This document shows positions 6,220-28,981 of a stretch of DNA of 32,148 nt, one piece after another. The stretch comes from an uncultured Sulfolobales archaeon. Lineage in GTDB: Archaea; Thermoproteota; Thermoprotei_A; Sulfolobales; NBVN01. The DNA is taken from contig CALIKV010000020.1 in the NCBI GenBank assembly GCA_938017505.1, positions 1 through 32,148 on the forward strand, in the 5' to 3' direction. The notes beneath the pieces are model-generated. The model did no database searches, was not told the DNA's origin, and saw only the letters and a program-made list of their open reading frames with translations. Positions within the stretch are counted from its first letter, which is position 1; every line of letters begins with the position of its first letter. A program made the position numbers and the translations under genes.

Positions 6220-6870
6220 ATGAATGAGGCGGAGATACTGCTTAGGGTAGCTGAGGAGAGGGGGGGTGTTAAACCAGGCTTCACTCCGTATCACGTTCTT
6301 AGAGCGCTTGACACCCTTCATCTCCAGGCCTTGACGGGCAGGCACGCGTTGATGAGGCAATTGAAGCTGGGTGAGGCCAGCGTCAAGACCCTCATCAACA
6401 GGCTGAGGGAGGCTGGTTTAGTGGAGACTTCAAGGCCTCACGGAACCAGGTTGACCGAGGCTGGCAGGGGGTTAGTCACCAGGCTTAGGGAATTCATTAA
6501 ACTGATCCCTAACCTCGAGTTGGGCGAGATCTGCAGGGACTGCAGGGTCTCCGGGGTGATCTTCAGCGACGGCTACTCCTACCTAGTTGAGGTCGGGGGT
6601 GTGGTGGTCTTCAGGGACTTAGTGGTTAAGGAGGGTGCCGACGGCGCGTTAATAGTCGTGTGCTTGAGCGGAGATCTATACCTGCCGACGCCCATCGGGA
6701 TTGAGGAGGTGCATTTGGAGGTGCTGGATCGACTGGTTGAGAGCTACGGTGTTAAGAACGGCGACCTCCTACTTCTAGGCATGTGTTACGGAGCTGATGG
6801 GGATAGATGCCTCTCCGCGGTAGTCAACACGATCGTCAAGATTGCAGGGAGGTCGAGGAGGGTCAAGTGA
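6220..6870 (+). CDS. DUF4443 family protein with N-terminal winged helix-turn-helix
   Basis: The 216-aa protein begins with a winged helix (about 20-90) typical of archaeal regulators: HALMRQLKLGEASVKTLINRLREAGLVET is the recognition-helix region, followed by the wing. A CxxC pair (EICRDCRVSG, about 106-115) sits in the middle and could bind metal. The C-terminal part is beta-rich (VVVFRDLVVKEGADGALIVVCLSGDLYLP). This architecture matches the archaeal DUF4443 family, whose function is not established. The stop (TGA 6868-6870) overlaps the GTG start of the diphthine-ammonia ligase gene at 6867, so the two are translated as a coupled pair. A regulatory role is inferred from the HTH only. Confidence 0.8.
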   Translation: MNEAEILLRVAEERGGVKPGFTPYHVLRALDTLHLQALTGRHALMRQLKLGEASVKTLINRLREAGLVETSRPHGTRLTEAGRGLVTRLREFIKLIPNLELGEICRDCRVSGVIFSDGYSYLVEVGGVVVFRDLVVKEGADGALIVVCLSGDLYLPTPIGIEEVHLEVLDRLVESYGVKNGDLLLLGMCYGADGDRCLSAVVNTIVKIAGRSRRVK

Positions 6871-7604
6871 AGAAGGGGGTAGCATTATACACAGGCGGTA
6901 AGGACTCCCACTTCGCGTTAATTGAATCGCTGAAGCAGGGGACATACGTAGACTTGCTGATCATTGTCGTCCCTAAGCTGAGCGATTCGTGGCTCTTCCA
7001 CACAGTTAATATAGGGTTGTCCCAAATCCACGCTGACTTAATCGGTGCTAAGAAGGTGGTTGTTGAGGTTAGCGGTGTTAAGGAGCGTGAGGTGGTCGAG
7101 GCCATCTCCTTCCTGCAGCGTCTTAACCTGGACTCGAAGTACGATCACCTAGTCTCAGGTGCAGTGGCTTCCAAGTATCAGAAGGAGAGAGTTGATTTAA
7201 TCGCTGAGGAGCTAGGGCTGAAGCACGTGACACCGCTTTGGGGTCGTGATCAAGAGACTCTCCTTGTCGAGGAGGTGGGGGAGCTGAGTTTCATCATCAC
7301 AGCAATCCAGGCTTACGGTCTGGACCTTAATTGGTTGGGTTCCCTAGTCTCCCGAGGACGCGTTAAAGCCTTCTTAAACGACGTTAAGAAGGCCTCCGTT
7401 AGCGTTGTTGGTGAGGGCGGTGAGTTCGAGACGTTCGTCGTCTCGTCAAAGCTCTTCAGGGCTGGGGGTATTTACATTAACGCAGCTGATTTAGTGAGGT
7501 ACCCACAGCACGGCTCCGGCTACTACTTCCTGAAGAGCGTGACCGTCATCCAACCTCCCCGCCTTGAAGCGCAAGAGCTTCACACGCGACAAGTTATCTC
7601 TTGA
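6867..7604 (+). CDS. dph6: Diphthine-ammonia ligase (ATP-pyrophosphatase, DUF71/Dph6 family)
   Basis: Dph6 amidates diphthine to diphthamide on elongation factor 2, using ATP and ammonium. The protein (245 aa) opens with VALYTGGKDSHFAL, the PP-loop of N-type ATP pyrophosphatases (GGKDS, about 9-13). It carries the family segments TPLWGRDQETLLVEEV (about 127-142) and GEGGEFETFV (about 186-195). I chose the GTG at 6867, which places the PP-loop at the N-terminus as in homologues; upstream codons in the same frame lie inside the DUF4443 gene and are not protein-like. The 3' end overlaps the convergent FEN1 gene by 11 bases. Confidence 0.9.
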   Translation: MKKGVALYTGGKDSHFALIESLKQGTYVDLLIIVVPKLSDSWLFHTVNIGLSQIHADLIGAKKVVVEVSGVKEREVVEAISFLQRLNLDSKYDHLVSGAVASKYQKERVDLIAEELGLKHVTPLWGRDQETLLVEEVGELSFIITAIQAYGLDLNWLGSLVSRGRVKAFLNDVKKASVSVVGEGGEFETFVVSSKLFRAGGIYINAADLVRYPQHGSGYYFLKSVTVIQPPRLEAQELHTRQVIS

Positions 7605-24373: not shown

Positions 24374-24447
<74 letters not shown>

Positions 24448-24477
24448 CCTCAAGCAAAACATACAAGGCGGGAGTAC

Positions 24478-25152
24478 CTAAGGTATTAGGTAGTGGATCT
24501 TTGATCGGAGGGACTCCGAGACCTCGTTCTCGTCCATTAAGACCACCGTTAGGGCGGCAACGTGCTTAAGGTCGTAGATCTCCGCAACGTATTTAAAGTA
24601 ATCAGCGATCTCCTTGTTCAGGATGGCGTGGACGGAGATCACGTAGTCGCTCTTCTGGAGCGCCATGTAGGGCTTGCTGCCGGTCTCCAGCCCTATGACA
24701 GACCCCTCCTCGGTGGTCACTATTAAGGGGACTTCAAGGGACGTGGATAGGTAGGATGCGATGCTCAGTGAGTAGTCAGGCAGCGACAGCAGTTTGTCGA
24801 TGAACAACCCGGGTTGACCCCCCAATAGCTTGTACTTGAAATACAGCGCGACGAAGCTCGTGAAAAGGGGTTCCGCGAAGGCCTTCCTCAAATCCCACCC
24901 GGTCTTATTCATGAACCTACCCACGCATTTCCTAGCGAACTCATCACTAAGCAGAGTCCTCAGCAGGTGCTCGGCCGTAGGAGTCGCTGGGATTGTAATC
25001 CCGTGGTAGTATTTACTCAGGGTAGCCTCACTGGAGTTGAGGATGTGGGAGAGCTCAGCGTTTTTAAATACTCTCCTGGCAGAAGATAGGGCGGTCAGGA
25101 AATCCACCCTAATAACTAGGTCGCGTGCCTTCCTGCTCAGATATCGCTTCAC
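24478..25152 (-). CDS. HTH regulator with degenerate phosphoribosyltransferase-like domain
   Basis: The 224-aa protein has a helix-turn-helix N-terminal part (about 1-70): SARRVFKNAELSHILNSSEATLSKYYHGITIPATPTAEHLL resembles Cro/C1-type HTH domains found in archaeal HTH-phosphoribosyltransferase regulators. The rest follows the order of such a fold: FIDKLLSLPDYSLSIASYLSTSLEVPLIVTT (about 120-150), then a DYVISVHAILNKEI strand. The PRPP-binding motif (hydrophobic stretch, two acidic residues, then small residues) is absent, so catalysis is unlikely. A purine- or nucleotide-sensing regulator is possible but not shown. A minus-strand TATA-like AAATTAATA (about 25187-25195) precedes it. The gene ends 30 bases after tRNA-Lys, facing it. 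Confidence 0.55.
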   Translation of the reverse strand: MKRYLSRKARDLVIRVDFLTALSSARRVFKNAELSHILNSSEATLSKYYHGITIPATPTAEHLLRTLLSDEFARKCVGRFMNKTGWDLRKAFAEPLFTSFVALYFKYKLLGGQPGLFIDKLLSLPDYSLSIASYLSTSLEVPLIVTTEEGSVIGLETGSKPYMALQKSDYVISVHAILNKEIADYFKYVAEIYDLKHVAALTVVLMDENEVSESLRSKIHYLIP

Positions 25153-26042: not shown

Positions 26043-27563
26043 TTGCAAAGCTATTTAAACTCTTTATGCAATAACCCTCCTGTAGTGAGCACGTTAATGC
26101 GCGCTGACGTCAGAACTAGGAAGTTGACGAGGGTTTTGTCCGGCGTTGCTCCCGTGGCCGTTATGGCTAAGCCTCATCCATGCCCTCACGGGAGATGCGT
26201 CTACTGCCCAGGCGGGCCGGACTTTAACACACCGCAGTCATACGTAGGCGACGAGCCGGCTCTAATGAGGGCTAGAGGGGTTAACTACGACCCATACCTT
26301 CAAGTCCGTCTCAGACTAGGTCATTACAGGGATTACATAGGCTGGTACCCGTCGAAAGTGGAGTTGATAGTCATGGGCGGCACCTTCGTCGCGTATCCTC
26401 AAGACTATCAAGAATGGTTCGTCACTGAGGCCTTCAGAGCCATGAATGACTTCCCAGGCTTAAGGAGTAATGCGGTGACAACCCTTGAAGCGGAGCACGA
26501 GAGGAACGAGCGTGCCTCAGTGAGGTGTGTGGGTCTCACCATAGAGACTAGGCCTGACTGGGGTATGGAGAAGCACGCGGACTTAATGCTCAAGCTAGGA
26601 GCCACTAAAGTCGAGCTCGGCGTGCAGAGCATCTACGACGACGTCCTATCGCGTGTTAAGAGAGGACACAGCGTCTCAGACGTCGTCAAGTCGACACGGA
26701 TCCTCAAGGATTCGGGGTTTAAGGTCGCTTATCATATAATGCCCGGCCTCCCCGGCAGCGACCCGGGCAGAGACTTAGAAGCGGTCAAGGCCCTCTTCGA
26801 GAACCCAGATTATAGACCCGACTACTTGAAGATATACCCGACTTTAGTAATTGAAGGTGCTGAGCTGTACGAGATTTGGAAGAGAGGTGATTACAGGGCA
26901 TTGAGGGATGAAGATGCCGTGGACATAATATCGGAGATGTTTAGATACATACCCAAGTACGTGAGGGTTCAGAGGGTGCAGAGGGACGTGCCCGCACCGT
27001 TAATAGTCGACGGGCCGAGGAGAGGGGACTTAAGGGAATTGGTTGAGGAAGCATGTCTGAGGAAAGGCATAAAGATAAATGAAATCAGGTGGAGGGAGGC
27101 TAGCAGGGCATTACTGAAGAGGGGTATCCTGACCAGGCCTGAGGACTTAAAGCTAACGAGAACGACCTACAAAGCCAGTGAGGGCATTGAGGAGTTTCTG
27201 GCTATAGAGGATCCGGTGAACGACACCGTGGTCGGCATCCTTAGGATGAGGATACCGTCCCCCCACGCACATAGGCCTGAAGTAGCAGGTGGCGGGAAAG
27301 CGCTGATTCGCGAGCTACACGTCTACGGCGCACCAGTACCCCCAGGCGGGTTACCCGCATCCCATCTAGAGTGGCAACATAGGGGTTTTGGAAGGAGACT
27401 GCTTGCCGAAGCTGAGAGGATAGCTCTCGAGGAGTACGATGTTGGCGAGGTCTTAGTTCTCTCAGGCGTCGGGGTTAGGGATTACTACAGAACGTTAGGA
27501 TATGTGAGAACGGCGGGCTCGCCCTACATGCGTAAGGGCCTCGAATGCAGCAACTTAATTTAA
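26043..27563 (+). CDS. elp3: tRNA uridine(34) acetyltransferase/radical SAM enzyme Elp3
   Basis: Elp3 uses a radical-SAM [4Fe-4S] cluster and acetyl-CoA to put a carboxymethyl group on C5 of wobble uridine in tRNA. The cluster motif C47-x4-C52-x2-C55 lies in HPCPHGRCVYC. The SAM core follows (TLEAEHERN, LTIETRPDWG, VELGVQSIYDDVL). The C-terminal GNAT domain has the acetyl-CoA loop QHRGFGRRLL and VGVRDYYRTLGY. The N-terminus is short: only about 40 residues precede the radical-SAM core, where homologues have roughly 80-100. The start is uncertain: TTG 26043 behind GGGGGAG, or ATG 26097 behind a TATA-like TATTTAAAC (26052-26060). The gene converges on a Trm9-like methyltransferase gene with a 9-base overlap. 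Confidence 0.95.
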   Translation: MQSYLNSLCNNPPVVSTLMRADVRTRKLTRVLSGVAPVAVMAKPHPCPHGRCVYCPGGPDFNTPQSYVGDEPALMRARGVNYDPYLQVRLRLGHYRDYIGWYPSKVELIVMGGTFVAYPQDYQEWFVTEAFRAMNDFPGLRSNAVTTLEAEHERNERASVRCVGLTIETRPDWGMEKHADLMLKLGATKVELGVQSIYDDVLSRVKRGHSVSDVVKSTRILKDSGFKVAYHIMPGLPGSDPGRDLEAVKALFENPDYRPDYLKIYPTLVIEGAELYEIWKRGDYRALRDEDAVDIISEMFRYIPKYVRVQRVQRDVPAPLIVDGPRRGDLRELVEEACLRKGIKINEIRWREASRALLKRGILTRPEDLKLTRTTYKASEGIEEFLAIEDPVNDTVVGILRMRIPSPHAHRPEVAGGGKALIRELHVYGAPVPPGGLPASHLEWQHRGFGRRLLAEAERIALEEYDVGEVLVLSGVGVRDYYRTLGYVRTAGSPYMRKGLECSNLI

Positions 27564-28235
27564 CGGTTTGATTGATAAGCAGTAGTAGTTCTTCGCCGGA
27601 GCCCTTCCGCTGCTTTGAGGCACGTAGATCCCCTTCTCCAAAGTCTTGAAGCCTGACACGCGCAGGTCTTTCACAAGCTCCCGCAGGCTGTAGAGATGAT
27701 ACTCTCTACAGGCGATCCGTGAGCATTTAGTGAAGTCCCAGAGACTCTCCTTCCTGCGGAACACGAAGGAAGGGAAGTCTCTTAAAACTTCGAGGATTAG
27801 GCTCAGTTGCCACCTACTCCATACTACAGCAAGCGCCATACCCCCACACTTTAAGACCCTGTAACACTCTCTCAACACTTGTAGCCTACCACTACGCGAC
27901 GTCACGTGATGGAGTGAGGCGATGAGAAGGACACCGTCTAACGAGTCACTCCTAAGCGGGAGGTATTCCATATCAGCGAGAACGGGATACAATCTGCAGG
28001 AGAGTTCCCAAGGAACCTCCTTAAGAAATCTCAATAGCATCTCCTCGGAAATGTCCACTATAACTCCTCTTAACTCGCTCCTCAAGCTGATGAGGTATAC
28101 GGCGTTCTGCCCGGGTCCTGAGCCGAGGTCGCCAAACCATAAGGCGTCACTCCCTAGGACCTTAGTGACTATTGGCCAGGGTTTCCTCCTGTAGCCGTTT
28201 GCTATAAAGTCATACCCGGCAGTCAGCCGCACCAC
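27555..28235 (-). CDS. Trm9-like SAM-dependent tRNA methyltransferase
   Basis: Class I methyltransferase (226 aa). Motif I is DLGSGPGQN (36-44); the later motif LIASLHHVTSRSGRLQVLRECYRVLKCGG follows the pattern of Trm9/ALKBH8. The N-terminus YDFIANGYRRKPWPIVTKVL (8-27) matches the Trm9 hallmark in which IA...PWP.V..FL precedes the SAM fold, and REYHLYSLRELVKDLRVSGF near the C-terminus fits as well. Trm9 methyl-esterifies the carboxymethyl group made by Elp3 (cm5U to mcm5U), so the neighbourhood agrees with the motif. Family members need the small zinc protein Trm112, which is not in this window. The start is GTG 28235, preceded by GAGGTG. Confidence 0.75.
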   Translation of the reverse strand: MVRLTAGYDFIANGYRRKPWPIVTKVLGSDALWFGDLGSGPGQNAVYLISLRSELRGVIVDISEEMLLRFLKEVPWELSCRLYPVLADMEYLPLRSDSLDGVLLIASLHHVTSRSGRLQVLRECYRVLKCGGMALAVVWSRWQLSLILEVLRDFPSFVFRRKESLWDFTKCSRIACREYHLYSLRELVKDLRVSGFKTLEKGIYVPQSSGRAPAKNYYCLSIKPLN

Positions 28236-28885: not shown

Positions 28886-28981
28886 GCCGCGGTAGTATAG
28901 CCCGGTCAAGTATGCGGGCCTCTCGAGCCGCGTCAGCGAGGATAGCCCGTGACCCGGGTTCAAATCCCGGCCGCGGCACCA
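28886..28981 (+). tRNA. tRNA-Glu (anticodon CTC) with an 18-nt intron at 37/38
   Basis: Acceptor GCCGCGG/CCGCGGC, anticodon stem CGGGC (28915-28919) pairing with GCCCG (28945-28949), loop CTCTCGA with anticodon CTC (28922-28924), T arm CCGGG-TTCAAAT-CCCGG, discriminator A (28978) and an encoded CCA (28979-28981). The 18 bases 28926-28943 must be removed. AGCC is repeated at both intron ends, so the exact cut can shift by up to four bases, but 37/38 is the canonical archaeal site. Confidence 0.92.

Follow-up and report, generated by a model that had tools for sequence, protein, structure and literature searches.

A trm9 homologue beside elp3 recurs across Thermoproteota and predicts wobble-uridine mcm5U34

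We analyzed a 32,148-nucleotide stretch of DNA from an uncultured Sulfolobales archaeon (the whole stretch is referred to here as the window), in which elp3 overlaps the gene of a Trm9-type methyltransferase. The two products very probably act one after the other at C5 of the wobble uridine, with mcm5U34, and probably mcm5s2U34, as the predicted outcome. The evidence consists of family membership, Trm112 and NcsA homologues in the same genome, the co-occurrence of the two genes, their recurrent adjacency, and matching gene trees. The features of the locus are as follows.

26043..27563 (+): elp3, encoding Elp3 (506 aa), a radical SAM and GNAT enzyme of the kind that forms cm5U34 in tRNA
27555..28235 (-): trm9-like gene of a class I SAM methyltransferase (226 aa), predicted to methylate the cm5U34 carboxyl together with Trm112
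27555..27563 (no strand): 9 bp shared by the 3' ends of the two convergent genes (ORF coordinates)
24374..24449 (+): tRNA-Lys(TTT) (ARAGORN), a possible substrate tRNA, excluded from the module on account of its unconserved position

The elp3 locus and its genome

The window represents contig C20 of a genome (G000) of 1.46 Mb in 46 contigs, with an estimated completeness of 82%. An earlier note, written from the sequence alone, had spoken of a crenarchaeon; this label is correct, since Zestosphaera tikiterensis (L092; 69% Elp3 identity) is the closest named relative among the fetched loci with an Elp3 alignment. The family codes used below (f1 to f11) are labels of this analysis, f1 being the window's family.

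On its sequence, the product of 26043-27563 (+) is Elp3 beyond doubt, as the earlier note had proposed. The protein scored 637 bits against TIGR01211 (curated cut-off, 350), it matched a solved Elp3 in the PDB (6iad; E, 7.6e-144), and Pfam returned PF16199 and PF04055 (Radical_SAM above the cut-off and GNAT just below it). The cluster cysteines (CPHGRCVYC, residues 47 to 55) aligned over 14 Elp3 rows. The listed start codon is TTG, and the true start is unsure because most relatives in the same 14-row alignment begin ~10 to 30 residues later. The Elp3 proteins of f9 (L069:2625-4094 and L070:1169-2599) read CPFN-C versus CPHGRC elsewhere, i.e., the first two cluster cysteines are one residue closer (CX3CX2C versus CX4CX2C in the other rows).

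The convergent, tail-to-tail arrangement described in the earlier note was confirmed by the ORF coordinates. The tRNA-Lys(TTT) was likewise where the note had placed it (1.59 kb upstream of elp3); however, its value as evidence did not hold, because ARAGORN found a tRNA-Lys near elp3 in none of 14 related loci, and we rejected this neighbour as support for the pathway. Between this tRNA and elp3 lies a 224-aa ORF (24478-25152) with a weak match (20 bits) to NF006328 that covers the N-terminal part of this adenine phosphoribosyltransferase model. Beyond trm9, ARAGORN predicted a tRNA-Glu(CTC) of 96 bp (28886-28981), possibly intron containing, which recurs in five loci (L053, L054, L056, L057, and L092, the last two probably from one genome) and which, as a C34 tRNA, cannot be a U34 substrate. 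Elsewhere in the window, the ORF at 6807-7604 resembles a Dph6-type diphthine-ammonia ligase in its YTGGKDSHFA motif.

Trm112, which the earlier note had marked as worth looking for, was found in the genome as a single PF03966 match over the cut-off (G000:C3:27506-27763; 56.4 bits versus 22). This protein is of the crenarchaeal type (128 aa), with CPMC and CEKC zinc motifs and four more cysteines, and its gene lies immediately downstream of a phosphoglucosamine mutase-like gene (L073; read by eye). An NcsA homologue is encoded on contig C26 (L172:898-1872), and its best PDB match was the U34 thiolase 6scy (1.5e-41), ahead of TtuA (1.1e-33). Thus, Elp3, the Trm9-like protein, Trm112, and NcsA provide a homologue of each main protein in the formation of cm5U, mcm5U, and mcm5s2U. 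The suggestion of a complete eukaryote-like pathway stands at the gene level, given the Trm9 homologue, Trm112, and the recurring adjacency described below; the words "complete eukaryote-like" go too far, since Elp3 is the one Elongator subunit in view. Elp3 is described as the sole one of the six Elongator subunits to have homologues in archaea (PMC2584109, cited, like the other papers here, from excerpts).

Sequence and predicted fold of the methyltransferase

Judged by its sequence, the METHYLTRANSFERASE at 27555-28235 (-) is a Trm9 homologue, as the earlier note had supposed from an N-terminal and a C-terminal motif, IANGYRRKPWPIVTKVL and YHLYSLRELVKDLRVSGF, both of which are present as quoted. 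Pfam and NCBIfam returned generic families alone (Methyltransf_11 and UbiE-type models). When the protein was compared with all PDB chains by phmmer, Yarrowia Trm9 (5cm2) ranked first (4.1e-6), and it was again the top match (2.3e-23; profile positions 25 to 214) of a family profile built from 25 methyltransferase homologues of the order. The profile alignment with 5cm2 extends from the R.KPW motif through RYYHLY..EL..G; that of the runner-up, 1ve3 (3.6e-21), is confined to the SAM core. A profile of the C-terminal third provides a fair test because this region lies outside the common SAM core; built from 22 of the 25 rows (L031, L032, and L046, which have the shortest C termini, were omitted), it matched 5cm2 (8.8e-7) and nothing else among 177,635 distinct PDB sequences (E <= 10). 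Four residues (R16, W139, R177, and N216 in window numbering) are the same in all 25 homologues, and three more (Y179, Y182, and K223) are almost constant; we take these seven residues to match yeast Trm9 as well, beyond the displayed 5cm2 alignments.

Comparison of predicted structures was less discriminating. With an AlphaFold2 model of the methyltransferase (13-row alignment; mean pLDDT, 89.9), Foldseek placed 3sm3 and human METTL6 ahead of 5cm2 (rank 6; 4.0e-14). VIA-align placed METTL6 first (Z, 24.8) and 5cm2 at rank 26 (Z, 20.5); among the 50 rows, it was 5cm2 that superposed most closely (rmsd, 1.9 A across 168 residues) and that was most similar in sequence (identity, 29%); the length of 5cm2 chain Z (184 residues) may lower its Z score. 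All 1000 of the 1000 aligned chains reached a Z of >= 8. The predicted fold is thus consistent with Trm9 without singling it out, and fold comparison alone is unspecific.

Co-occurrence and adjacency of elp3 and trm9

Among 117 genomes of the order, 53 carry elp3. With a methyltransferase threshold of >= 30 bits and all listed rows used, 47 genomes had both genes, 6 had elp3 alone, 1 had the methyltransferase alone, and 63 had neither (Fisher p ~1e-24, a statistic that ignores relatedness). The six genomes with elp3 alone are a mixed set: G034 has a broken methyltransferase gene (28.7 bits), which is split in two frames in L097, apparently the same contig; G077 scored 138 bits with the methyltransferase profile; in G098 and G116 (81% and 70% complete), elp3 lies at a contig end; and G101 and G113 have just weak methyltransferase matches. 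The genome with trm9 in two frames near elp3 (G034:C70/L043 and L097) is that of an Ignisphaera, and the gene is either decaying or misassembled. Presence and absence of the two genes covary within f1, f2, f4, f9, and f11; therefore, several independent gains or losses agree. Five genomes of f11 genus g25 (G022, G072, G084, G102, and G108) had no listed match to either gene at the thresholds used; naturally devoid of both, they would be suitable controls in an analysis of nucleosides.

In a phylum sample of 250 genomes, a methyltransferase match of >= 85 bits was present in 79 and elp3 in 209 (G200, G275, and G280 were counted as elp3 bearing). Five of the 79 (G171, G183, G195, G270, and G315, which are 77, 77, 90, 75, and 62% complete, respectively) show no elp3 match at 1e-80. 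According to these matches, many genomes of the phylum carry Elp3 without Trm9.

The adjacency also recurs in related genomes, as the earlier note had thought worth checking. The two genes lie within 3 kb of each other in 28 of the 53 elp3 genomes of the order, spread over four families (18 convergent, 4 trm9-elp3, 4 elp3-trm9, and 2 divergent). This exceeds chance, since ~0.4% of random placements would fall within 3 kb of elp3 (simple arithmetic for a 1.6-Mb genome). In the phylum sample, the same distance applied to at least 40 of the 79 genomes with a match of >= 85 bits; 32 of the 40 listed are same-strand trm9-elp3 pairs, 5 are convergent, 2 are divergent, and 1 is elp3-trm9. Five shorter methyltransferase matches from f20 (67 to 72 bits) were considered as well, all within 1.3 kb of elp3; this count excludes weaker matches, most of which cover the core alone. 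The same-strand trm9-elp3 form is the usual one outside the window's order, and the tail-to-tail form is common to the window's relatives. Named loci (the best 80 of the 584 that were confirmed) gave 13 cases in which the methyltransferase gene is no more than 3 kb from elp3, including those of Zestosphaera, Ignisphaera, several Thermoprotei MAGs, and "Candidatus Methanomethylicus mesodigestus"; this set overlaps the order sample, i.e., some genomes are in both. No Trm9-like gene adjoined elp3 in the euryarchaeal loci retrieved.

A second trm112 gene linked to elp3

Five of the 53 elp3 genomes of the order, from two families, have a same-strand trm112 gene 33 to 51 bp upstream of elp3 (G002, G052, and G068 in f2; G045 and G053 in f4). 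Four of these five encode another Trm112 elsewhere; in G053 (63% complete), the linked copy was the sole one found. In a tree of 55 Trm112 proteins, the five linked copies formed one group (95/79) with 13 of the 16 f1 rows, including the window's, and inner nodes of this group were recovered at 96/88 and 97/90. This odd grouping recurs in the trees of Elp3 and of Trm9, where f2 and f4 join f1 genus g4 (SH-aLRT, 88 each). Subject to the caveat that p-AU values are optimistic here because the groups were named post hoc, with the trees already seen, an origin of the linked copy (Trm112b) by local duplication of the f2 resident was rejected (p-AU, 0.0006), as was separation of the 13 f1 Trm112 rows from the linked copies (p-AU, 0.019), and f1 (without G079) as a single clade was rejected by the Elp3 and Trm9 trees (p-AU, 0.0097 and 0.0013, respectively).

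Since Trm112b is not a local duplicate and clusters with f1 Trm112, and since the Elp3 and Trm9 trees agree, trm112, elp3, and trm9 probably moved as one module. The simplest reading of these trees would be that a trm112-elp3-trm9 block was transferred from an f1-like lineage to f2 and f4 and that most of f2 later lost the extra Trm112. Two observations run contrary to a clean transfer: extant g4 genomes keep elp3 and trm9 apart, and one f1 genome (G079) has a Trm112 of the general type. Each of the nine elp3-bearing f1 genomes that are >= 92% complete has a single full-length Trm112; thus, the f1-type protein presumably serves all methyltransferase partners there. We tentatively put forward a broader scenario, which we consider possible but rather doubtful, in which Trm112, normally a shared activator, exists as a Trm9-dedicated paralogue that forms an mcm5U module of three genes with elp3 and trm9 and moves with them between families; in the window's family, that form would have displaced, or would simply be, the only Trm112, now serving all partners.

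A dedicated Trm112 beyond the f2 and f4 families was considered and dropped. Six phylum genomes with tandem trm9-elp3 have two PF03966 matches (G182, G215, G297, G312, G325, and G327), and the second matches lie elsewhere in the genome; no Trm112 adjoined the trm9/elp3 pair in 32 phylum-sample regions around these genes. The G325 pair resembles two copies of one gene (9% contamination), and two of the second matches lie in frames of 316 to 319 aa. The latter (L254 and L256; G297 and G182) probably represent Trm112-methyltransferase fusions in Thermoproteota, judging from frame length and domain match; such fusions are stated to be absent from Crenarchaeota in the part of PMC5372719 available.

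Proposed pathway and alternative explanations

In the pathway that we favor, Elp3 would use acetyl-CoA or acetate and a 5'-deoxyadenosyl radical to convert U34 of tRNAs such as tRNA-Lys(UUU) to cm5U34. The Trm9-type methyltransferase, with the Trm112 from contig C3 as its activator, would then esterify the cm5U34 carboxyl with SAM, yielding mcm5U34, and 2-thiolation by the NcsA homologue would probably give mcm5s2U34 as the final product. We propose this chemistry, the contact with Trm112, and the choice of tRNA substrates by analogy with characterized relatives. Formation of cm5U34 by archaeal Elp3 is described as established (PMC13315578), and Trm9-Trm112 is reported to esterify cm5U34 to mcm5U34 in archaea and eukaryotes (PMC7694415, citing van Tran 2018). 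An opposing review, in the passages available, confines mcm5U-type marks to eukaryotes (PMC6382703).

The enzyme could belong to the Trm9 line and still lead to a different U34 product: the cm5U ester might be just a transient, activated form that is converted to ncm5U or some other archaeal derivative (or, after hydroxylation, to mchm5U), so that mcm5U does not accumulate. Several reports fit this idea, i.e., ncm5U and cnm5U are reported from archaea (PMC5372719 and PMC7694415), ncm5U builds up in a yeast trm9 mutant (PMC3110198), and a mass-spectrometry study that includes Sulfolobus acidocaldarius tRNAs names mchm5U and mchm5Um among the U34 modifications of the archaea studied, the term "mcm5" being absent from its main text as available (PMC7668247). 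However, elp3 is far more widespread in the phylum sample than the methyltransferase, and most elp3 genomes have no full-length Trm9-like match; thus, cm5U-derived amides and nitriles must be possible without Trm9. The Trm9 hallmark residues are also retained, and we regard a different end product as improbable.

Still less probable, to a degree that we would hardly entertain it, is a chance neighborhood of elp3 and an unrelated methyltransferase of class I (METTL6-like, UbiE-like, or active on small molecules). The precedence of 3sm3 and METTL6 in Foldseek, that of METTL6 in VIA-align, and the generic Pfam and NCBIfam families would all suit such an enzyme, but the high fold scores are explained by the class I fold, which is shared by every aligned chain. 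The family and C-terminal profiles instead pick Trm9, and over many families the two genes occur together and side by side far more often than expected by chance. The two-step modification by Elp3 and a Trm9-type methyltransferase thus remains our preferred reading.

Relation to earlier work and known systems

The pathway itself has precedents. Grosjean et al. reported elp3/trm9 clustering in Sulfolobus solfataricus in 2008, and an mcm5s2U-like U34 was predicted in Haloferax in the same year from Trm9, Elp3, and Tuc1 homologues (PMC2584109); a 2017 paper repeats this, and its BLAST survey confines good Trm9 candidates to Sulfolobales and Halobacteriales (PMC5372719). What is new here is the consistency of the elp3/trm9 linkage, at times with Trm112; in the openly licensed literature, as far as available, we found no earlier description of the breadth of the adjacency or of a cluster with its own Trm112. 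At the gene level, the results support a eukaryote-type mcm5U34 pathway far outside Sulfolobales and Halobacteriales, deep Thermoproteota lineages with tandem trm9-elp3 included. A sharp prediction follows: genomes with trm9 next to elp3 should have mcm5(s2)U, and those with a solitary elp3 should lack it. Together with the linked Trm112, the pair would make a minimal three-protein system for in vitro reconstitution of the two C5 steps. The predicted mark is one that occurs in human and yeast cells, as a transfer RNA modification that serves accurate protein synthesis.

Compared with eukaryotic Trm9-Trm112 (yeast; Yarrowia 5cm2) and the methyltransferase domain of ALKBH8, the window protein shares the N-terminal R.KPW, the class I SAM core, the C-terminal W.....Q and RYYHLY..EL..G motifs, and a Trm112 in the genome. 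It differs in being a single-domain protein of 226 aa without AlkB or RRM domains, in the linkage of its gene to elp3, and in its predicted partner, a crenarchaeal Trm112 of ~128 aa with extra cysteines. Elp3 of Methanocaldococcus infernus, which forms cm5U34 in vitro (Selvadurai 2014, cited in PMC5372719 and PMC13315578), is likewise a stand-alone archaeal Elp3 without other Elongator subunits, whereas the euryarchaeal loci retrieved have no Trm9-like gene beside elp3. The closest counterparts are the Elp3/Trm9 pairs of S. solfataricus and Haloferax volcanii (PMC2584109; van Tran 2018, cited in PMC7694415), which belong to the same two families and the same predicted mcm5(s2)U34 pathway, with elp3 and trm9 clustered in S. 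solfataricus, too. In contrast to these pairs, the window's genes are convergent and overlapping, its family has a distinct Trm112 clade, and five of its relatives have a second trm112 within the cluster.
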